From: Nymphaea colorata
Lineage: Eukaryota; Streptophyta; Magnoliopsida; Nymphaeales; Nymphaeaceae
Assembly: GCF_008831285.2 (NCBI RefSeq)
Contig: NC_045141.1
Location: forward strand, 18,844,848-18,908,847
Reading direction: 5' to 3'
Length of the DNA stretch: 64,000 nt
Part shown: one piece after another, positions 675 through 47,600 of the stretch
Layout: every line of letters begins with the position of its first letter
How positions within the stretch are numbered: position 1 is the stretch's first letter
Notes under the pieces: generated by a model
Told to the model about the DNA's origin: nothing
Database searches by the model: none
What the model saw: only the letters and a program-made list of their open reading frames with translations
Program-made: the position numbers and the translations under genes

Positions 675-2078
675 TCATCCGTTCAATGGTTTTAGATGAG
701 ATCCAATGGTGAAACCCCCGTCGATCACAAGGTTATGGCCGCTGATGTACTTGGAATCATCACTGGCAAAGTACAAGGCGGCCTCTGCGACGTCCTCTGG
801 CTTAAGATTCATCCCTTTCAAGAACACATGCTTGTTGGTTTCAGTGTAGAACTGAGATTCATCGACACTGTTCCCTCCGGTGAACAGAGGAGTCAAGACT
901 GCATATGGGGACACGCAGTTGACTCTGATGCCAAACTCCCCCAGGTCCACCGCCATGCTCTTGCACAGGCCGGCAACCGCATGCTTCGACGTGCAGTAGG
1001 CGTGGCGCGATCGGCCGGCCTTCACGGAAGCCACGCTCGCCGTGAAAATTATGCTGCCTTGCCTCGCCGGAATCATGACCCTGGCGGCGTGCTTGGCTCC
1101 GAGGAAGCCACCGACCACGTTGACGCTCAAGACCCTCTCGAACATGGATTTCTCGATATCCGGCACGCTGGGGCACGACGGGCCAATGATGCCGGCGTTG
1201 TTGTACATGATGTCGAGCTTGCCGAACTTTGCGACGGTGCCATCGATGGCACCGGCCACGTCTTGTTCGATGGTGACATCGCAGTGGAAGTACATGGCGT
1301 CGTCACTGCCGTCGGAGCTCATTTCACGGCAGGCTTGCCGGCCAAGCTCGTCTTGGATATCGGCGATCACTACCTTGGCGCCGTGGCAATGGAACAACTT
1401 GGCAGTGGCCAGACCGATTCCGCTAGCTGCACCAGTTATAAGCGCTACTTTGCCTTTTAATCTGCAATCAGAGGGTTCATTTTTGAGTTCCATCGAGAGT
1501 TCAGTCATTTGTTCTATCAGATGATAAATTGCAGCTACTTTAAAAGTGTACTTGATCTGGTTTCTACTGTTCTTATTTTTAAATTTTAAAGTGAATTTCC
1601 AATTTTTTATCTTCAATTCACGTTCTTTACTAAAGAAAACAGTGAAATCTTCTTTGGGTACAAGAAATTTTTACACAAAATCTCTCATAAACTGATTTGT
1701 TTCGTCATGAAAGAAGTTGGCTACAATCACATTCACCCCATCTCTCTCTCTCTCTCTCTGTCTACAATGTAAAGAAAAAGAAGGGATATTTGGTGGAAGA
1801 TCTCAGAATTTCTGGAAATCTTGGCATGTTTTTTCTAGATATGTAGCATGATTGACAAGCAATCTGTTCTATTGTTTTCTATACCATTCTAGTTGAAACA
1901 GGGGGACCCCCATTTTTGGTAGGTGAGGCAAGCAACTGAAGATTAGTAAAAGAAACCAAACAAGAATAGAGAAACCAGTACATTGAAACACAGTTGGAAG
2001 CTTTATCTGAATCAGAGGAAGACCAACTCAAAAAATCTGCTACCTTTGTGCGACAGGATCGATTCGGGTGGTACTCAT
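675..2078 (-). CDS. Short-chain dehydrogenase/reductase, SDR110C-like (copy 1)
   Basis: Two exons on the minus strand: exon 1 is 2078-2044 (35 bp, ATG at 2078-2076) and exon 2 is 1461-675, separated by a 582-bp GT-AG intron; the product is 273 aa. The open frame of exon 2 runs upstream to 1616, but the real start is taken in exon 1. That exon ends in phase 2 and restores an Arg-Leu-Lys-Gly junction identical in structure to the paralogue at 14.9 kb. Visible motifs: nucleotide-binding TGAASGIG at residues 21-28, Asp46 after the second strand (NAD rather than NADP preference in this family), NNAG at 99-102, and the tetrad Asn126, Ser154, Tyr167, Lys171. Length and motifs fit plant classical SDRs of the secoisolariciresinol dehydrogenase, xanthoxin dehydrogenase and terpene-alcohol dehydrogenase type, which oxidise alcohols in specialised metabolism. 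The substrate cannot be read from sequence. No break is seen, so it is probably functional. Confidence 0.9.
1741..1760. repeat. (CT)n microsatellite in SDR copy 1 intron
   Basis: A short run of tctc repeats lies inside the intron between 1462 and 2043. Nothing else is recognised in this intron. Confidence 0.7.
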
Positions 2079-14886: not shown

Positions 14887-16790
14887 ATGAGCAGCAGCCA
14901 ACTTGCTTCCGTTGCCCAAAGGTTTGTGGTTATTTCTCAGCTTTTCATTAGTTGGTACCTCTTTTTTTTATCCTTTAGTTTGCAACTTATTGTGCTGTTT
15001 CTTTATCTCAACTTTCCTTAACATTGTTCTGTTTTTGTTTTGGGAGGAGTTTTCCTTCTTGTTTGAACTAAAGTAGAGATGGACATGTGAAATTTCTTTT
15101 ATGCTTTTTTCTTTGGCTGGCTTCAAACTTCACAAAATCATGCACCTAGCAAAAAGGGGGCTCCCCTGTTTCCGGGTATTAAGGAGTACTTTGCGTGTAG
15201 ATAGCAGTTTCAGCAGCGTTCCATGTATAGGTCTCTGTTTCACAGTAAAACTATGACTGTCAAAAATCCTATATATGGAAGAAAGTTTGCTCCGAAAGAT
15301 TCTGTCTGTGGATTCAAAAAGGAAAATCCGAAAGTTTCACCAAGAATTCTTTAACTAATATGTTTCTAAACATCGCGGAAAAGGGCACATGATATTTTCA
15401 GCCAAAGAACGACGAATTTTGAAATCTGGTGTTCTAGCTTCTGCGGACACTAACAGGTTTCCTTCAAACATTACAATTTTCTCACAGTAAAATTGTACCT
15501 GTCAAGAATCCAATATATGGAAGAAAGTTGCTCAGAAAAATTCTGTCAATAGATCAAAAAGAAAAAACCGCTTCTTTAAAAAGTTTCACCAAGAATTCTT
15601 GAACTAATGTGTCCCTAAACATTATGGAAAGGGCCTATGATATTTCCAGCCAAGAAAACAGGGATTTTGAGAACCTAGTGTTCTAGCTTCTGCTCACACT
15701 GACAGGTTTCCATCATACATCGCTGCTTTCCTCAAAATTTCAGCCGCTATTAGCCATATGGGTGGCCTCACTGAAGATGGGAGCAAAGAGATCGTCCAAT
15801 AAAGCATGTAAATTGGTTAGAATATGGTTTTGAGTCCTGGTTTTAAATATATAACAAGAAGCTAGCAGAAGAACAATCTAGAGCATAGAAAACACAATGG
15901 CGGCTTCAAAATGCTAATAATGTGGGGATTGTTTCAAAATATTGGAGATATTTATGACTGGAATCTAGGCAACCCCAAACTGATAGACCGAGTTCCGTGT
16001 ATATACTTGAAGGCTAAAAGGGAAAGTAGCACTCATAACCGGCGCAGCTAACGGGATCGGCCTAGCTACAGCCAAGTTGTTCCATCGCCATGGCGCCAAG
16101 GTAGTGATCGCCGATATCCAGGACGAGCTGGGCGAGAAAGCCTACCATGAAATTAGCTCCAATGGCGGTGACGGTGCGATGTACGTCCATTGTGATGTCA
16201 CCAGTGAAGAAGACGTAGCCGGTGCCGTTGATGGCACTGTTGCCAAGTACGGCAAGCTCGATATCATGTACAACAACGCCGGCTACACCGGTCCGTCGAA
16301 CCCAAACGTGCCGGAGATTGACAAGACCCTATTCGAGAAGCTCTTGAGCGTCCACGTAGTTGGTGGCTTCCTTGGAGCCAAGCATGCCGCAAGGGTCATG
16401 ATTCCGGCGAGGCAGGGCAGCATAATCTTCACGGCAAGCGTGTGTTCCGTCTTAGGTGGCCTTGGCCTTCCGGCGTACTGCGCATCAAAGCATGCGATTG
16501 CGGGCTTGTGTAAGAGCATGGCCGTAGATCTTGGGCAGTTTGGGATCAGAGTCAATTGCATATCACCATATGCTGTGTTCACTCCTCTTATATCTGGATT
16601 CACAAATATGAATGAATCTGAGTTCTACAATGAAGCAAGCAAGCATGCCTTCCTGAAAGGGGTGAATCTTAAGCCGGAGGACGTAGCTGCAGCCGCACTG
16701 TACTTTGCAAGTGATGACTCCAAGTACACAAGTGGTCACAACCTTGTTCTGGATGCAGGTTTCACCATTGGTTTGAGAGGCAATTATTGA
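14887..16790 (+). CDS. Short-chain dehydrogenase/reductase, SDR110C-like (copy 2, altered tetrad)
   Basis: Exon 1 is 14887-14921 (35 bp) and exon 2 is 16013-16790, with a 1091-bp GT-AG intron; the product is 270 aa. The start is fixed by the small first exon (MSSSQLASVAQ), whose split Arg codon joins LKGKVALITGAANGIG in frame. The gene is a close paralogue of the minus-strand gene at 0.7-2.1 kb, with the same intron position and phase. Motifs: TGAANGIG 21-28, Asp46, NNAG 99-102, Ser154, Tyr167, Lys171. The fourth tetrad member, Asn126 in copy 1 and in most classical SDRs, is His here (SVHVVG, codon cac against aac). The usual Gly-Gly near the C-terminus is Ala-Gly. The open frame is undamaged, so the protein may be made but with altered or lost activity. 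Predicted role otherwise as for copy 1, an NAD-dependent cytosolic alcohol dehydrogenase of specialised metabolism; the substrate is unknown. Confidence 0.9.
15238..15720. repeat. Tandem duplication inside the intron of SDR copy 2
   Basis: About 15238-15475 and 15480-15720 share, in order, cacagtaaaa, atatatggaagaaag, agtttcaccaagaattct, 'tgatattttc/cagcca' and gtgttctagcttctgc. Units are about 240 bp. The duplication explains much of why this intron is almost twice as long as its partner in copy 1. Confidence 0.8.
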
Positions 16791-29501: not shown

Positions 29502-29713
29502 CATTGTCACATACGTCTGGTACGGGTATCATACGGCAAGGAATTTCTCGGGTATAATACGGCAAAGTTGTATATCTCGGGAATATCTCAGGAAAATCTC
29601 GGCAAATTTTTTAAAAATTTAAAACATTTAATAAACCCCAAAAACTATAAAAAAATAAAAATTAATAAAAAAAATATGAAAAAAATGTGTATAATACGCG
29701 TCTTATGTGACAA
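29502..29713. mobile_element. MITE, 212 bp, with inverted termini
   Basis: It begins cattgtcacata and ends tatgtgacaatg, with the inverted repeat continuing imperfectly inward (gtatcatac against gtataatac). The 8 bp outside each end are attttttg and attttttt, a near-match to a hAT-size duplication. Words such as ctcgggtataatacggc link it to the repeats at 18.1, 47.7 and 55.8 kb. Confidence 0.65.
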
Positions 29714-30114
29714 TGATTTTTTTGGGCAAGAAATATGTGGGGCTATATTGATGGTACCAAAGAAGACCCTCAACTTACTCTTACAAAGAAAGTAGATGGA
29801 AAAGAGGTAGAATTGACTAAAAATGAGAAAGAAACTACTCGTAATGAACATAATAAGTGAAAAGCATGGAAATGTGAGCATCATAAAGCCATTTATTGGC
29901 TTCAAGCTGGAGTTGATTCAACAACTCAAGCACAAATATCAAATTTTCAACTAGGGTCAGAAGCAAGCAATTATCTAAAAGAAACCATTATATTGAAAGA
30001 TGATGGCCACAAAGCCAAGTTGAAAAAGAGTATTACCTAATCTAGCAAAGAGAAAGAACTATTAGAGAATACCATGGGGAGATCATGCTAAGAGAAAGAA
30101 CTATTAGAGAATAC
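29714..30114 (+). pseudogene. Broken Ty1/copia-like Gag fragment
   Basis: From 29738 a plus-strand frame reads WGYIDGTKEDPQ and later KAIYWLQAGVD, followed by a segment ending ASNYLKETIILKDD, and stops at 30040. It has one internal stop (tga after NEHNK). The pattern of Trp-Gly-Tyr-Ile-Asp-Gly, a second Trp-containing helix and a Tyr-Leu-Lys segment is that of the copia Gag (UBN2) domain. No zinc knuckle, protease or LTR is seen. The last part holds 'agagaaagaactattagaga' twice (about 30048 and 30091) just before the satellite starts. Confidence 0.5.
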
Positions 30115-33100
30115 CTTATCTAATTCAAAAATTGTTCGATATCGATCTATCTGTGGGTTTAGATCAGTAGACTTACCTGATCCATAAATTGTTGGATTTT
30201 GATGTAGTTGCGGGCCTAAATCAATGGTCATATCAAATCCAAATATTGTTGGATTTGGATTAGGTTGTCGGTCCAAATTAATGGTCTTATACAAGATAGA
30301 AATTGTTGGATTTGGATATAGTAGTGGGTGTCGATCAGTAGTCTTATCTGATCCAAAACATGTTGAATTTGGATATGGTAGTGTGTTTAGATCAATGGTC
30401 TTATCTGATCCAAAAACTATTAGGTTTGTGTCCGGTTGTAGATAGATAACATCAATCTTATCTGATCCAATTATGGTAGTGTGTTTGGATCAATGATCTT
30501 ATCTAAGTCCGAAGTAGCTAGATTAGGATCTAATTTGGGTCGAGATCAGTGGCCTTATCTGATCTAAAAAAAATTGATTCAGATATCATTGTGCATATAT
30601 ATAGTGGTCATATCTAATCCACCCATTGTTTAATTTGGATCAAGTTGTCAATCTAGATCAATGGTCTTACCTGATCCAAAAATTGTTGGATTAATATATT
30701 GCAGTGAGTCTAAATCAATAGTCATATATGATCGTACATTGTTGAATTTTGATATGGTAGTGGGTCTCAATAAGAGGTCTTTTTTGAGCATCAGTAGTCT
30801 TATCTGATGCAAAAATTGTTGGATTTTGATTTGGTTGTAATATAGATCAGGAGTCTCATCTGATCCAAAAATTATTGGACTTCAATCTCGTTGTAGGCCA
30901 GCCAGTAGTCTTGTATAATCTAAAGATTCTTAGATTTAGATTTAGTTGTCGGTCAAAATCAACTGCCCTATCTGACCTAGAAACTATTGGATTTAGATTC
31001 GGTTGCGGGTATAGATCAATGGGGTTACCAAATTCAAAAATTGTTCGATATCGATCTATCTGTGGGTTTAGATCAGCAGTTATACTAGATCCACAAATTG
31101 TTGGATTTTGATGTAGTTGTGGGCCTAAATCAATGGTCATATCAAATCCAAATATTGTTCTAATTGGATTTGGTTGTCGGTCCAAAGTAGTGGTCTTACA
31201 TAAGATGGAAATTGTTGGATTTGGATATAATAGTGGGTGTCGATCAGTAGTCTTATCTGATCCAACATATGTTGACTTTAGATATAGTAGTGCGTTTAGA
31301 TCAGTGGTCTTATCTGAGCCAAAAACTATTAGACTTGTGTCCGGTTGTAGATAGAAATCAGCAGTCTTATCTGATCCAGTTATGGTAGTGTGTTTGGATC
31401 AATGGTCTTATTTAAGTCCGGAATAGCTAGATTTGAATCTAATTTTGGGTCGAGATCAGTGATCTTATAGATCTAAAAAAAATTAACTTAGATATGGTTG
31501 TACTTATATATAGTGGTCTTATCTAATCCAGCCATTGTTGAATTTGAATCACGTTGTCAGTTGACATCAATGGTCTTACTTGATCTAAAAATTGTTGGAT
31601 TAATATATTGTAGTGAGTCTAGATCAACACTCATATATGATCCGTAAATTGTTGAATTTTGATATGGTAGTGGATGTCAATGAGTGGTCTCTTCTGAGCA
31701 TCAGTAGTCTTATCTGAAGCAAAAATTGTTGGATTTTGATTTGGTTGTGATATAGATCAGGAGTCTTATTCGATCCAAAAATTATTGGACTTCAATCTCA
31801 TTGTAGGCCAGCCAGTAGTCTTGTATAATGTAAAGATTCTTAGATTTAGATTTAGTTGTCGGTCAAAATCAATTGCCTTATGTGACATGAAAACAATTGG
31901 ATTTAGATTCGGTTGTGGGTCTAGATCAATGGGCTTACATGATTCAAAAATTGTTCGATGTCGATCTATCCATGGGTTTAGATCAGTAGTCTTACTTCAT
32001 CCACAAACTGTTGGATTTTGATGTAGTTGTGGGCCTAAATCAATGGTCATATCAAATCCAAATATTGTTGTAATTGGATTTGGTTCTTGGTCCAAATTAG
32101 TGGTCTTACATAAGATGGAAATTGTTGGATTTGGATATAATAGTGGGTGTCAATCAATAGTCTTGTCTCATCAAAAATATGATGACTTTGGACATGCTAG
32201 TGTGTTCAATGGTTTTATCTGATCCAAAAACTATTAGACTTGTGTCTGGTTATAGATAGAAATCAGCAATTTTATCTGATCCAGTTATGGTAGCGTGTGT
32301 GGATCAATGGTCTTATCTAAGTCCGAAATAGCAAGATTTGGATCTAATTTTGGGTCGAGATCAGTGGTCTTATTGATCTAAAAAAAAATAACTCAAATAT
32401 GGTTGTGCTTATATATAGTGGTCTTATCTAATCCAGCCATTGTTGAAATTGGATCAAATTAACAGTCGAGATCAATGGTCTTACCTGATCCAAAAAATGT
32501 TGAATTAATATATTGTAGTAAGTCTAGATCAATAGTCATATATGATATGTAAATTGTTGAATTTTGATGGTAGTGGATCTCAATGAGTGATCTCTTCTGA
32601 GCATCAGTAGTCTTATCTGATGCAAAAATTGTTGGATTTTGATTTGGTTGTGATATAGAACAGGAGTCTTATTTGATCCAAAAATTATTGGACTTCAATC
32701 TCATTGTAGGCCAGCCACTAGTCTTGTATAATGTAAAGATTCTTAGATTTAGATTTAGTTGTCGGTCAGAATTAATTCCTTATGTGACCTGAAAACAATT
32801 GGATTTAGATTCGGCTGTGGGTCTAGATCAATGGCCTTACCTGATTCAAAAATTGTTCGATGTCGATATATCTGTGGGTTTAGATCAATAGTCTTACCTG
32901 ATCCACAAACTGTTGGATTTTGATGTAGTTGTGGGGCCTAAATCAATGGTCATATCAAATCCAAATATTGTTGTATTTGGATTTGGTTGTCGGTCCAAAT
33001 TAGTGGTGGATGGAAATTGTTGGATTTGGATATAGTAGTGGGTGTGGAACAGTAGTCTTATCTGATCCAAAATATGCTGAATTTGGATATGGTGGTGTGT

Positions 33101-36100
33101 TTAGATCAGTGGTCTTATCATATCCAAAAAACTATTATACTTGTGTCTGGTGGTTGGAGATAGAGATCAGCAGTCTTATCTGATCCAGTTATGGTAGTGT
33201 GTTTGGATCAATGGTCTTATCTAAGTCCGAAATAACTAGATTTGGATCTAATTTTGGGTCGAGATTAGTGGTCTTATCTGATCTAAAAAAAATTGACTCA
33301 GATATAGTTATGCATATATATAGTGGTCTTATCTAATCCAGCCATTGTTGAATTTGGATAGTGTTGTCAATCTAGATCAATGGTCTTACCTAATCCAAAA
33401 ATTGTTGGATTAATATATTGTAGTTAGTCTAGATCAATAGTCATATATGATCCGTAAATTGTTGAATTTGGATATGGTAGTGGATCTCAATGAGTGGTCT
33501 TTTTTTAGCATCAGTTGTCTTATCTAATGCAAAAATTGTTGGATTTAGATTTCGTTGCGATATAGATCAGGGGTCTTATCTGATCTAAAAACTATTGGAC
33601 TTCAATCTCGTTGTAGGCCAGCCAGTAGTCTTGTATAATCTAAAGATTCTAAGATTTAGATTTAGTTGTCGATCAGAATCAATTGTCTTATCTGACTTGA
33701 AAATTATTGGATTTAGATTTGGTTGTGGGTCTGGATCAATGGGCTTACATGATTCAAAAATTGTTCGATGTCGATCTATATGTGGGTTTAGATGAGTAGT
33801 CTTACCTGATCTACAAACTGTTGGATTTTGATGTAGTTGTGGGCCTAAATCAATGGTCATATCAAATCCAAATATTGTTGTAATTGGATTTGGTTGTCGG
33901 TCCAAATTAGTGGTCTTACATAAGATAGAAATTGTTGGATTTGGATATAATAGTGGGTGTCGATCAGTAGTCTTATCTGATCCAAAATATGTTCTTTGGA
34001 TATGGTAGTGTGTTTAGATCAGTGGTCTTATCTGACCCAAAAACTATTAGACTTGTGTCCGGTTGTAGATAGAGATCAGCAATCTTATCTGATCCAGTTA
34101 TGGTAGTGTGTTTAGATCAATGGTCTTATCTAAGTCTGAAATAGCTAGATTTAGATCTATTTTGGGTCGAGATGAGTGGTCTTATATGATCTAAAAAAAA
34201 TTGACTCAGATATGGTTGTGCATATATATTGTGGTCTTATCTAAGACAACCATTGTTCAATTTGGATCACGTTGTCAATATAGATCAATGGTCTTACCTA
34301 ATCAAAAAATTGTTGGATTAATATATTGTAGTGAGTCTAGATCAATGGTCATATATGGTCCATAAATTGTTGAATTTGGATATGATAGTAGATCTCAATG
34401 AGTGGTCTTTTCTGAGCATCAGTTGTCTTATCTGATGCAAAAATTCTTGGATTTTGATTTGGTTGTGATATACATCAGGAGTCTTATCTGATCCAAAAAT
34501 TATTGGACTTCAATCTCGTTCTCGGCCAGCCAGTAGTCTTGTATAATCTACATATTCTTAGATTTAGATTTAGTTGTCGGTCAGAATCAATTGTCTTATC
34601 TGACCTGAAAACTATTGGATTTAGATTCGGTATAGATCAATGGGCTTACCTGATTCAAAAATTGTTCGATATCGATCTATCTGTGGGTTTAGATCAGTAG
34701 TCTTACCTGATCCACAAATTGTTGGATTTTGATGTAGTTGTGGGCCTAAAGCAATTGTCATATCAAATCCAAATATTGTTGTATTTGGATTTGGTTGTTG
34801 GTCCAAATTAGTGGTCTTATATAAGATAGAAATTGTTGGATTTGGATATAGTAGTGGGTGTGGATCAGTAGTCTTACTTGATCCAAAATTTGTTGCATTT
34901 GGATATGGTAGTGCGTTTAGATCAGTGGTCATATACGAGTCTGAACTTACAGGATTTAGATCTAATTGTGAATCGAGATCAATGGTCTTATCTGATCCAA
35001 AACTATTAGATTTGTGTTTGATTGTAGATATAGATCAGTGGTCTTATCTAATCCAATTATTGTTGGATTTTGATCTAGTTGTGAGTTTGGGTAAATAGTC
35101 TTGTCTGGTCGATAAGTTGAGAGCTTAGGACATGGTAGTGAGCCTAAATTGGTAGTCTCATATGAACCGAAAATTGTTGAATCTAGATATGGTAGTAGGT
35201 CCCAATCATAAGTCTTATCTGGTCCAAAAATTGTCAGATTGGGATCTAGTAGTGAGTTTAGAATAGTAGTCTTATCAAACGCAAAAATTGTTGGATTTGG
35301 ATTTACTTATGGGTATATATCAGGAGTCTTATTTATTGGACTTCAAATTGGTTGTATCAACTGTGTTGTCTAATTTGAAAACTATTGAATTTAGATTCAG
35401 TTGTGGGTTTAGATCAATTGGCTTATCTGATTCAAAAATTGTTGAATATGGATATGGTAGTGGGTCCCGATCATGGGTCTTATCTAATTCAGAAATTGTT
35501 AGATTTGGATCTAGTCATAGGTTTAGAACAATGGTCTTATCTAACGCAAAACTTGTTGGATTTGGATTTGGTTGTAGGTGTACATTAGGAGTCTTATATA
35601 ATCTAGAAATTATTTGACTTTAAATTGGTTGTAGGCCAGCCAGCAGTCTTATATAATGTAAAGATTGATAGATTTAGACAGTCGTCTGTCGGAATCAATT
35701 GTCTTGTCTAATTTGAAAACTAGATTTAGATTCAGTTGTGGGTCTGGATCAATGAGCTTATCTGATTCAAAAACTATTGAATATGGATCTATTTGTAGGC
35801 ATAGACCAATGATCATATTTGATCCAAAAATTTGTTGGATTTGGATCTGGTTGTGGGCCTCAATCAGAGACGTTGTCAAATTTAGATATTGTTGGAGTTT
35901 GATATGTTAGTGAGTATAGATCAATAGTCTCATCTGATCCAAAGATTGTCGAATTTAGATATGGTAGTGTGTTTGGATCAGTGGTCTTATCTAAGTCTGA
36001 AATTGTTAGATTTGGATCTATTGTGGGTCAAGATCAGGGGTCTTATCTGATCAAGTTTTTGTTGGATATGGGTTTGGCTGTCAGTCTAGATCAATGGTCT

Positions 36101-36646
36101 TATCTGATCCAGTTTTTGTTGGATTTGGGTTTGGTTGTCAGTCAAGATCATTTGGTCTTATATGATCCAAATATTGATTGATTAAGATACGGTAGTGAGT
36201 CTAATCAACAGTCTTATCTAATCCAAAATTTGTTGAATCTAGATATGGTAGTGTGTCTTATCTCAGTCTGAATATTACTGGATTTGGATCTAACTATGGG
36301 TTCAGATCAATGGTCTTAATTTATACAAGATTGTTGGATTCATATATGGTCGTTGATATCTATTAGTGGTCTTAATGATCCAATTTTTGTTGGATTTGGA
36401 TCTTGTTGTCAGTCTAGATTAGTGGTCTTATCTAATCTAGAAATTGTTGGACTAGGATATAATAGTGAGCAGGGGCGAAGGGAGGGGGGGGGGCCTAGGC
36501 CATGGCCCCACCCTGGCCAATGAAAAAAAAAACTTTTACATTGAAAAAAAATATTATTTTTTAATCACTATATGTATTTTTTATATTTAAATTCAGTTTG
36601 GCCCATCAATAGCCTTATCTAATATTGAAATTGTTGAATCTAGTTG
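30115..36646. repeat. Satellite array: ~53-bp units in ~905-bp higher-order repeats
   Basis: About 6.5 kb is built from variants of one unit of roughly 53 bp, with cores such as agatcaatggtcttatctga, 'tccaaaaattgttggattt' and ggatatggtagtgggt. Groups of about 17 units form a higher-order repeat. The marker ggccagccagtagtc occurs at 30897, 31806, 32709 (variant), 33616 and 34524, i.e. every 903-909 bp, and a diverged copy appears at 35634. The right third (35.1-36.6 kb) is less regular. A dispersed repeat (36471-36603) is inserted near the right edge, after which satellite sequence resumes for about 40 bp. Open frames of 60-109 codons occur on both strands because units are near multiples of three; I regard them as by-products. 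Confidence 0.9.
36471..36603 (+). repeat. Dispersed repeat carrying ggccatggcccca, copy C, inserted in the satellite
   Basis: Begins aggggcgaagg, followed by a run of G, ggccatggccccaccctgg, an A-rich stretch and ttcagtttggccc. It is homologous to 8133-8312 and to the reverse of 11500-11690, but lacks their right tail. Confidence 0.55.
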
Positions 36647-37380
36647 TAAAAAAACCAAATTCTCAAAGGTGGTGCTATATTTTAAAACAATTTTTTATCT
36701 AGTGAAAATTCTATCTACAGAACATCAGCTACAATTCCTCGACTACTTCAAAATTTGTCCTAAAAAGATACTAAGTTCTCTAAGAAAAATTGATATTAGC
36801 ATGCTAAAAATAATCAATTAAACAACCAAATTTGAAAATGAAACACAAATAGTATATTCTACTCTATTCCCACATGTCTAATCACTCCTTGCACTTTAAG
36901 CTCAATAATTCAACAATTCATGCCAGAAAAAGGCAATTTAAAACCACTAATCATATAAACACTAGGAAAATGAGGAAGACTAAGTTGAACCCTATGTTTA
37001 CTAACTACAAGATATAAAATCTCACACAAAGAAACAAATCAAAGGATTAAAGCAAGTAAAAATACTTACCTTTCCACCAGTTCCCTGCAAGACTAATGAG
37101 AAAGATACAAACTTCCTAAAAGAAAGTGATGAATACTAAATAATGTTGCAAATCTAATCTAAGAAACCCAACCAAAAATTGGTTTAAAAGTTCGAGATCA
37201 AGAAAAAAAAACATAATTTATGGAAGTGGTTTCATATTTTTAAACAATTTTTTAATCAATTGAAAATTCTGGCATAAAAAATGCTACTAGCATGTCAAAA
37301 ACAGAAATAAACACTTGATTAAACAAGCAAAACTCAAAAATCAAACACAAATAGCCTATTCGAACAGCCACAGCCACACC
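36647..37380. repeat. Direct duplication of about 200 bp in AT-rich sequence
   Basis: About 36655-36865 and 37190-37365 share 'tttaaacaattttttat', agtgaaaattct/'ttgaaaattctgg', 'ctagcatg(c/t)', 'caattaaacaa' and aaacacaaatag in order. Non-coding. Confidence 0.55.
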
Positions 37381-39261: not shown

Positions 39262-39905
39262 GTTATAAAAGGCATAGCGTATCGCGTATCGGTCAGGCCG
39301 ACCTATACGCCGTATTGTAAAATTAATTTTTTAATTTCAAAAAATATTTAAAAATCAGAAAAAAATAGACAAAAATCTGAAAAAAATGAACAAAAAATCA
39401 GAAATGAAGAAAAATAAAAAATGTATTCAAATATAAAAAAAGATCATTTATGTGGAACATTCATGTGTATACTATCAACAACACATTCAAAAATAAGAAA
39501 TCAAATATTCAAATTAACATAATAAGCATCCATCACAATTTTAAACTTGAAAATTTTATAAAATTTTAGGACTGAGTCTTAAGACTTGGAGTTTTGGGAC
39601 TTAGATTACATCACAATTTTATAAGTTCAAACATACAGTTATCATCTTTCATGATTCAACGATGATATCTTCCAAATTGATGAATCCTCGGTTAATTTTT
39701 ATGAAAATAAGCCAAATCTCTCTCTCCTATGTCTATTGGAGCCTTTAAATACAAAAAGAGAGAGGGAGGAGTGTTTAAACTTTTAAAAAATAAGAAATTT
39801 TATGTTTTCTCCCGTATCGTACGATACGGAGGTGTATCGCCCGTATCGTACGATACGGGCGATACGCACGCGTATCGTGTATCGAACACGTATCCTATAG
39901 GTTTC
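39262..39905. mobile_element. Probable non-autonomous element with cgtatcg-rich ends
   Basis: The left part (39265-39310) has gcgtatcgcgtatcggtc, and the right part (39812-39900) has repeated cgtatcgtacgatacg and cgcgtatcgtgtatcg. A/T-rich sequence lies between. Ends rich in the same short word in opposite orientations suggest a MITE-like element. No target duplication could be fixed. Confidence 0.4.
39834..39865. other. Perfect 32-bp palindrome
   Basis: Centred between 39849 and 39850, with arms built on cgcccgtatcgt/acgatacgggcg. A shorter copy of the core (cgtatcgtacgatacg) lies just to the left at about 39813-39828. It could form a cruciform or a strong RNA hairpin. Confidence 0.9.
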
Positions 39906-44689: not shown

Positions 44690-47600
44690 GTTTGGGTAAA
44701 AAATGAATAAAACGTAAAACTTAAAAACATTTCCACGTTTCGAGTCTTCGACAAAGGTGGCGGACGAGCTTTTTTAGGGTATAGGGTTTTCAGCGTTGGG
44801 AACGTTAACGGCGGAGCAGACCGGCGTCTTTTTTTACGTCGAGTTGCAGCAACATTAAACCTCCGACGGACTGGTGCATTTCCCGGCACCGTGCCGACAG
44901 CTTTCCGGCACCGTGCAGACCTCCGACAGCTACATCCGACTACGCTCGCGTGCTCAGGTAGGATTTCCGTTTTGGTTTCTACTTTTTGTTTATGTCCGTT
45001 AGTTTCTAGTTTTTTGTTTTCAATCATTAATTTCAAGTTTTTGTTTTCTGTTAAGTTGCATATGTCTGTTAGTTTTCTACTTTATAGTTTATACTTTATA
45101 CCTCTTGTTTGAGTCGATTTGCATATGTGCATTAAAAAGTAGAAACTGTGTCGCTGTTAACTTTGTAGTTTGTACGTTTGTTACTTTGTTAGTATTTTTT
45201 TTTTTTTTTTACCTTTACGGTTTTACTTTATCATTTACATATGATTTTTTAAAGATGAAACGAGAGTCAGATTTTATTGCTTCAGGACCTCACGTGTTTG
45301 ATACTTGATAACTGCAGAAAATGCCTAGATTGAAGGATATATTTTGGTCACATGCAATTGAAAGTGATGAAGGGAGTTGACTTGCAAATTTTGTTCTGAG
45401 CATATACCAGAGGAATTGTACGATTTAACATTTAAGTATCATTTGGCTGGGATTCACGGGAACAATGTTGTCGCATGTCGTAACGTGCCTGAAAATATCA
45501 AGCAAATGGCAATCAAAGCTTGTAGAGTTATTGAGGACAGACCCGTGAAGAAGGGGAGAATGCAAAGTGGAAGTGGATCACATTTAAGTGTAGGTTCATC
45601 ATGTTCAGTTAACAATTTTTTTCGTGGAACTTCGTCTGAAGGAGGAACAGAACAGGACAAGGCCAAAAACAAACAATTTCAGGCATGATGAAGAAAGTGA
45701 AAAAGGATTTTGTAGATAAACTTCTTCTTAAAGCTATTGTGTTGAACAACTTACCTTTCAACTTACTTCGATCAGTGGATTTCAAGAATTTTGTTGTTGG
45801 TGCTACAAACTTTGGCCCACGATATATTTTTCCAAGCACTGAAATAACAAGAACGAAACTACTAGATGAAGCAAAGAAAGATGTTCTATTATACGTTGAT
45901 GAAATGAAGAAAACATGGACACAATATGGATGTACAATTATGTCTGGTATTTGGAAAGATACGATTAAAAACAGGTCCTATATAAACTTGTTTGTGAGCT
46001 CTCTAACAGGCACCATATTTTGGAAGGCAAGTCATGTTGAAAAAGGTCCTAAAAATGCAGAATTTATAGTTGACTTTTTATCTTCAACTATAGAAGAAAT
46101 TGGGGCAAACAATGTCCTACAGATTGTTACCGATAATGGAAGCAATTACAAAAAAGCAAAATATATTCTTGAAGGAAAATAACCAAACATTTTTGCTACG
46201 TCTTGTGCTGCTCATTGCATTGACTTAATGCTTAAAGACATTGATAGTTTAGAAGATGTGGCAAATATTATGTGCAAAGCAAGGCAGATTGTCAAGTTCA
46301 TATATAATAAGCAACAAGCTTTAGATATAATGAGAACTTATACAAAGGGAAAGGAGTTGAGGAGGCCTGGTGTGACTAGATTTGCCTCCCAATTTATTTG
46401 TTTGGATTCTATCTTAAAACGAGAAGAGGGCCTCAGGTTTATGGTTGCCTCCAATGAATGGAGACATGTAGAAGACATTGAAAAAAATGATGCAAAAGAA
46501 CTTACAAGCTTCGTTCAAAATGAAGATTTTTGGAGAAAGGGAAAAGAAATAATCAGGTTTGTTGAACCATTAGCGAGAGTACTAAAGATGGTAGATGGGG
46601 AAGGGGCCACAATGGGTTATTTATATGAAGCACTTGATAGAGCTAAAGAAGCTATCAAGAATGCAAGCAACGGCAGGAGAGAAAAATATATGCCATATTG
46701 GAATATAATTGATAAGAGATGGAATCGTAATTTGCATAGTCCCATACATGTCGCAGCAGCTTATCTAAATCCTCATTTGTTTTGGAATAAAATAGTAAAG
46801 ATGAATGAAGAAGTTTTGAAAGGTTTGAACTTAGTAACAAAAAATCTTCTTCATGAGGATTCTGCAGATATGGGTCTTGAATTGATCAAATATCACAACA
46901 GAAATCCTACATTACTTCGTGATGGGTTAGCCATGAGTGTTATTGACATTTATCATCCTCTCATCCACGTAAGTGTCTCACTTTTACTGAATTGTTGATG
47001 ATTGGTTAAATATTTTAATTACAAATTTACAACTGTATGATTCACAATTTTGTTTGTTTGTTCTTTAAATAATGTTAGTTGTTTGGTGGGAGATATTTGG
47101 ATCTTCTGTTCCTATTCTTCAAAGAGTAGCAATCAAAATTTTAAGCCAGCCATGCAGTGCATCAGCTTGCAAAAGAAATTGAAGTGCATTTGAAGCTGCT
47201 AATACGAAGAAGAGAAGCAATTTTTTACCATCTAGATTAACCGATTTGGTATTCATTAGAATGAATATGCATTTGCAAAGCATGGCTGCAGAAATAAAGA
47301 AGATAAATGCAAATCCAATCTATATTGACCATGTGAATCCATTTCCAGAAGCAGAAAATATAGAGGTTGGCTTGTCTTCAGATTTAGAAGAAGAAGATGA
47401 TGAAGAATGCAGACCAAGTAGAACAAATGAAGAAGATGACTCTACTTCATGGGGTGAAGATTAATGATGGATATGTTCTTTTTTTTTATTTAAGAATGAT
47501 TTAAATTGTGTTGCAAAGCCATGAGGGCTATAAACTTGATATTACTTATGCATTAGTTCGATTCTGATTCTGATTCTCGTTGTCTTATTAGTTTCTCATT

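Follow-up and report, generated by a model that had tools for sequence, protein, structure and literature searches.

The window analysed here, a 64,000-nucleotide stretch of Nymphaea colorata contig C4 (NC_045141.1, positions 18,844,848 to 18,908,847), contains a tandem array with open frames on both strands and a gag remnant at its edge. The array raises the question whether it encodes a protein, forms the inside of a transposable element, is kept as functional non-coding DNA or is satellite DNA without such a role. The array is very probably a relict of a satellite (i.e., minisatellite-like) family with a 57-bp unit that is dispersed over the genome at low abundance, and at this locus a block duplication was followed by a burst of amplification of 16 units and then by neutral decay.

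Unit, higher-order repeat and reading frames

The tandem array is real and occupies positions 30115-36643 of the window, where 57-bp units follow one another head-to-tail over 6.5 kb. In a self-comparison by lag, the strongest period was 57 bp, followed by 114 and 171 bp, while the long lags of the array were 1810, 2718 and 909, and a lag of 53 was absent from the 25 best lags below 300. The earlier note had given a unit of ~53 bp, with many units near 54 bp or 18 codons; the unit is instead 57 bp, or 19 codons, and the lack of diagonals at 53 bp formally counts against that note solely because the period is 57. Tandem Repeats Finder returned 12 rows inside the array with periods of 55-58 or 114 bp, among which 57 was the commonest. 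Wrap-around alignment to a 57-bp profile yielded 116 units, 51 of them 57 and 31 of them 56 bp long. Given that the final two or three aligned units (36478-36650) fall on an insertion and the array's tail, there are ~113 true units, so the tandem array as first described stands, with its count of ~120 lowered to about 113. The insertion (36473-36604, borders drawn by eye) is unrelated to the units, G-rich and then A-rich, and interrupts the array shortly before the last partial unit (36605-36643, plus strand).

The first 80 units form five copies of a 16-unit, ~905-bp higher-order repeat (30115-34635, plus strand), which was delimited by the identity of units at lag 16. Over the first 83 units this identity was 0.877, compared with an overall unit mean of 0.656 and with a maximum of 0.702 over 200 random unit orders at all lags below 50. 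The successive copies start with their unit 0 at 30115, 31015, 31925, 32827, 33735 and 34636, and their spacings of 900, 910, 902, 908 and 901 bp agree with the ~905-bp period proposed earlier. The marker followed along the array in the earlier note recurs exactly at 30896, 31806, 33616 and 34524; its copies at 32709 and 35634 each have one mismatch. The sixth copy, which opens the remainder of the array (34636-36472, plus strand), is kept in part, to ~34920, with a mean identity of 0.722 between copies 5 and 6. Irregular and more diverged 57-bp units, including the diverged marker at 35634, follow from about 34921, where the identity between copy 6 and the next 16 units falls to 0.644 and the 16-unit order is no longer found. 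The five copies are nearly equidistant (identity of 0.848-0.900 in all pairs; divergence between higher-order copies of 0.092), as expected after a single burst without later homogenisation. Both the two levels of periodicity and the local amplification suggested earlier are thus confirmed, in the form of the 57-bp unit and the 16-unit repeat.

Because 57 bp equal 19 codons, frames stay open on both strands, and the peptides quoted earlier do occur, RSMVLSDPK on the plus strand at 30389 and 34976 and DLGPQLHQNPTI on the minus strand at 31131 and 30222. A repeat protein with ~19 residues per unit would fit this length, the presence of three open frames among the six of the consensus unit (by eye) and the longest stop-free stretch of 180 residues on the minus strand. 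Stretches of at least 180 residues, however, were also reached by 42 of 500 random unit orders, and the 24 stretches of at least 60 residues are matched by the 24.0 (SD 3.1) found on average when the units were randomly ordered 200 times. A length divisible by three is found in just 57 of the 113 units, the substitution rates in the three codon phases (0.071, 0.100 and 0.104) do not differ significantly (permutation p 0.17), and Pfam found nothing above cut-off in the repeat reading frames of related loci. That the array encodes such a protein is therefore scarcely credible, and the coding repeat was rejected, as was the idea that these frames might carry meaning: reordering the units yields as many open frames, and the codon phases give no significant signal. 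The window array shows no sign of protein coding and is a non-coding satellite. It should be noted that open frames mean little in any tandem repeat whose unit length is a multiple of three.

A dispersed family and its flanks

In the Nymphaea colorata assembly (407.77 Mb, 783 contigs), the 18-base core GGTCTTATCTGATCCAAA with up to two mismatches gave 1,653 matches, compared with 18 for its reversed control, while a two-unit consensus gave 276 and a strict 34-base pattern 44 matches. By hand count, there are at least about two dozen array places among the matches listed, on C1-C6, C9-C12 and the small contigs C50, C382 and C657, so the array is not the isolated one that had been implied: the dispersed family occupies about two dozen places, of which this is one, and a paralogous array lies at the same site on C9. 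At the 13 loci read for this purpose, 864 profile matches correspond to 303 core matches, and extrapolation from this ratio puts the family at ~4,700 units, which make up 0.07% of the assembly. Elsewhere in the genome its arrays measure from 0.5 to more than 14 kb, and all lengths read are in the range of kilobases, compared with the megabase arrays with centromeric histone that mark centromeric satellites.

The best short lag was 57 in 14 of the 15 arrays read (at C12:20.9 Mb barely above 39) and 39 in the array at C1:18.6 Mb. The best longer lags differ by locus: 227 at C9:24.9, 488 at C2:22.0, 708 at C11, 834 at C1:31.5, 1224 at C3, 1238 at C10, 1267 or 721 at C2:8.0, 1289 at C5, 1303 at C6, 1546 at C12:14.5, 1581 at C657, 1679 at C9:12.3 and 1187, or 398 by Tandem Repeats Finder, at C12:20.9 Mb. 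Blocks of units alternate with non-unit spacer in 7 of the 15 arrays. One spacer family is common to C1:31.5, C2:8.0, C11 (~340 bp of spacer per 706-708 bp), C12:14.5 and C657, and a second one to C5 and C6.

Units were compared across 13 loci (608 units; two loci omitted, long arrays truncated to 3,500 bases, and units excluded if they had more than 12 gaps). Their identity averages 0.63-0.79 inside a locus and 0.70 from one locus to another, and the locus consensus sequences are 0.825-0.982 alike, a range that is helped by the alignment of all units to one profile. The unit variants are therefore old and for the most part common to the loci, while each locus has higher-order repeats of its own, with differing ages.

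Between higher-order copies, divergence by substitutions alone could be measured at 13 of the 15 loci (C3 and C1:18.6 lacked a usable piece). It is 0.007 at C12:14.5, 0.015 at C5, 0.036 at C657, 0.086 at C11, 0.11-0.12 at C2:22.0, C1:31.5, C12:20.9 and C2:8.0, 0.15 at C6 and at C4 (whole array with its irregular part included), 0.18 at C10, 0.25 at C9:24.9 and 0.26 at C9:12.3. This range, from 0.7% to 26%, indicates that the loci were amplified at different times. Homogenisation was not seen at the level of the unit; the higher-order copies are near-identical at C12 (0.7%) and C5 (1.5%). The arrays at C12:14.51-14.69 Mb, with a compound repeat of 1,546 bp and 0.7% divergence, and on C657 were the youngest arrays and are candidates for an active source.

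On its left side, the window array abuts a broken copia-type gag remnant (29732-30087, plus strand; Pfam PF14244, E 0.001), which is also found on the C9 paralogue. The match has 19.3 bits, below the curated cut-off of 24.1 bits, so the copia gag relic noted earlier is present as a sub-cut-off match; the gene-bearing setting ascribed to the array has likewise held up. On the right side follows a flank module (36664-37360, plus strand), which is common to several arrays of the family and to places without arrays. The family could accordingly have spread by transposition, with the array as the internal tandem-repeat section of an LTR retrotransposon or of a DNA element carrying captured gene pieces. 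The gag remnant adjoins the array on both C4 and C9, the C2:7.99-Mb array is immediately preceded by a broken copia pol, and the same module follows arrays on C4, C9, C1, C2 and C11. Beyond the module at C2:7.9984 Mb there is a fragment like residues 91-148 of ribosomal protein uL2, with similar DNA at C1 and C9. Module and arrays occur together at six of nine places read, so spread within a larger mobile unit is possible; at the other three (C6:0.43, C10:6.00 and C2:8.01 Mb), however, the module has no units beside it. Two of two other copies of the gag relic that were read also carry no units within 5 kb, which leaves the suggestion that the array might be the interior of a known transposon unsupported. 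The neighbouring copia parts differ between loci, the homology between C1 and C2 continues for more than 10 kb without a common end, as in a duplicated chromosome segment, and the arrays of C10, C12:20.9 and C1:18.6 Mb share no flank with others as far as read. In an unsystematic look at the loci read, neither terminal repeats nor target-site duplications appeared. Taken together, an origin of the array as part of a transposable element is unlikely.

Several features of the flanks were observed in passing. Pfam scans of flank frames (nine and four proteins) gave copia domains and sub-threshold matches only, and a frame downstream of the C1 locus resembling a transporter exon was dropped after Pfam and PDB gave nothing. 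At C10:6.00-6.02 Mb, the downstream module repeats six times, every 3.65 kb, with no satellite units in the 6 kb read, indicating that a different large tandem repeat uses it. Positions 29502-29704 of the window have at least 30 matches of 82-89% identity over the assembly and are part of a high-copy repeat, and related tandem motifs with TACGATACGG are found at 39811-39878. The window also contains a DUF659 domain (45685-46179; PF04937, E 2e-29), which is typical of hAT-type transposases, in a frame broken near 46180-46228.

The paralogous block and the order of events

A block at positions 16123-38312 of the window (plus strand) runs collinear with C9:12288049-12307818, apart from insertions and deletions on both sides. 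The window also has a pair of related genes, or pieces of genes, for short-chain dehydrogenases (Pfam PF13561) in mutually inverted orientation, at 675-1613 (minus strand) and at 16077-16787 (plus strand), and the latter opens the block. Like the window array, the C9 array is flanked by the gag remnant on one side and by the downstream sequence on the other. When its units were compared by lag, the best lags were 30, 15 and 5 rather than 16, and in this comparison the 16-unit repeat of C4 was not seen on C9; C9 units 40-45 match C4 repeat positions 12, 13, 14, 15, 0 and 1 in order. The flanks of C4 and C9 differ by 0.125 over seven chosen pieces (5,596 aligned bases), which is a minimum because collinear pieces of lower identity (69-77%) were left out. 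Given that the C4 higher-order copies differ by 0.092 and that the C9 array occupies the same site, the array appears to predate the duplication of the block, and the 16-unit repeat looks somewhat younger than this duplication. Since 0.092 and 0.125 are not far apart and the two sequence classes may mutate differently, burst and block duplication could be close to each other in age. With Nymphaea colorata as the host, the duplication shared by C4 and C9 postdates the whole-genome duplication at KS about 0.9 (PMC7015852; PMC9601493).

The best-supported order of events is as follows. A locus of these units would already have stood beside the copia gag remnant when the ~22-kb block was duplicated between C4 and C9, and a group of 16 adjacent units on C4 would later have been multiplied as one into five head-to-tail copies, probably when misaligned units underwent unequal exchange or slippage. 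Since the burst, the C4 array has been neither homogenised nor amplified again, and ordinary mutation has altered it, most rapidly at G and C. Separate amplifications took place at other times in the other loci of the family; some of these are very young, and in some a foreign spacer was caught up in the repeated segment. For the family as a whole, an old array of units would thus have been dispersed and duplicated with its block, and groups of units would then have been amplified locally, with or without spacer.

Mutation, possible function and known relatives

With the ancestral base taken as the majority of the five higher-order copies, and columns left out if they were tied or had fewer than four letters, 210 changes have occurred since the burst. 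The change per base is about threefold higher at G and C (0.085-0.089) than at A and T (0.026-0.029), and G>A together with C>T accounts for 88 of the 210 changes. The faster decay of G and C matches the expectation for methylated DNA and suggests that the array may be methylated. Over the 57 columns of the unit, the changes are spread with a chi-square of 54.1, compared with a mean of 54.3 and a maximum of 96.7 in 2,000 neutral simulations, and no unit position showed an excess or deficit of change in this test. The window array therefore shows no sign of constraint since the burst and mutates like neutral DNA.

These results bear on whether the array is kept as non-coding functional DNA, for example as a protein-binding platform, a small-RNA source or an insulator. 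Such a function would be consistent with the upkeep of the 57-bp period and the unit consensus across many loci, with the seemingly better conservation of left-hand unit positions across the family and with the folding of the consensus unit, which is better than that of shuffles (z -3.19). The neutral pattern of change after the burst argues against it, as does the behaviour of the predicted pairings. In the 608 units, the pairing of the hairpin GATCCAAA/TTTGGATC is 0.615, barely above the 0.605 of column shuffles, 2 of 300 of which reach 0.615. A second small dyad, ATCAG/CTGAT, pairs at 0.818 compared with 0.789, above all 300 shuffles, which ignore the relatedness of units; when its strongest covarying pair alone was retested in 198 non-redundant units, the association was lost (Fisher p 0.55). 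Kept non-coding function would thus be quite improbable, judged from the letters of the array and its relatives.

Two structural candidates were set aside. A hairpin with covariation has a good consensus fold, yet its gain in pairing is slight and the dyad pair failed the retest, and a structured RNA, RNA gene or spacer found 0 Rfam matches at the gathering cut-off among 7 sources (120,000 bases).

The left part of the unit seems to keep its G and C positions better than the right part family-wide, and this difference is not predicted by a purely neutral history. A DNA-binding factor, or the packing of three units (171 bp) per nucleosome, might conceivably have kept the 57-bp unit recognisable across the dispersed loci, so that these re-amplify repeatedly from one unit while relics like the window array decay unconstrained, although we regard this as a rather remote prospect; under it, the kept element may alternatively be a 39-bp core, which is the whole unit at C1:18.6 Mb.

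The relict satellite locus favoured here belongs to a known kind, the satellite families with local higher-order repeats, and the window array is ordinary satellite DNA. No described 57-bp plant satellite was found in a search of mainly open-access papers. Like plant satellite and minisatellite families with higher-order repeats, the family has head-to-tail non-coding units, locus-specific higher-order repeats, arrays on several chromosomes and a divergence that rises with the age of the array. It differs from them in its very low abundance (~0.07%, extrapolated), its short unit, its gene-bearing surroundings at C4 and the spacer inside the higher-order unit of several arrays. Dispersed euchromatic satellites (reviewed in PMC10048060) likewise form short arrays scattered outside the main heterochromatic blocks, while the present family is known from sequence alone. 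The family resembles satellites that arose from tandem repeats within LTR retrotransposons (PMC7004042) in that copia remnants touch its arrays at some loci, and differs from them in that the other gag-relic copies read here (two of two) are free of units. Cen-42, named in the genome paper of Nymphaea minuta (PMC13254204), is also a tandem repeat, in the genome of a possible relative, and its name suggests a different unit length.

What the family provides is a dated series of independent amplifications of one unit in one genome, from the arrays of C12 and C5 with their near-identical higher-order copies to the relics of C4 and C9, and such a series should be useful for measuring the birth, expansion and abandonment of satellites in plants.
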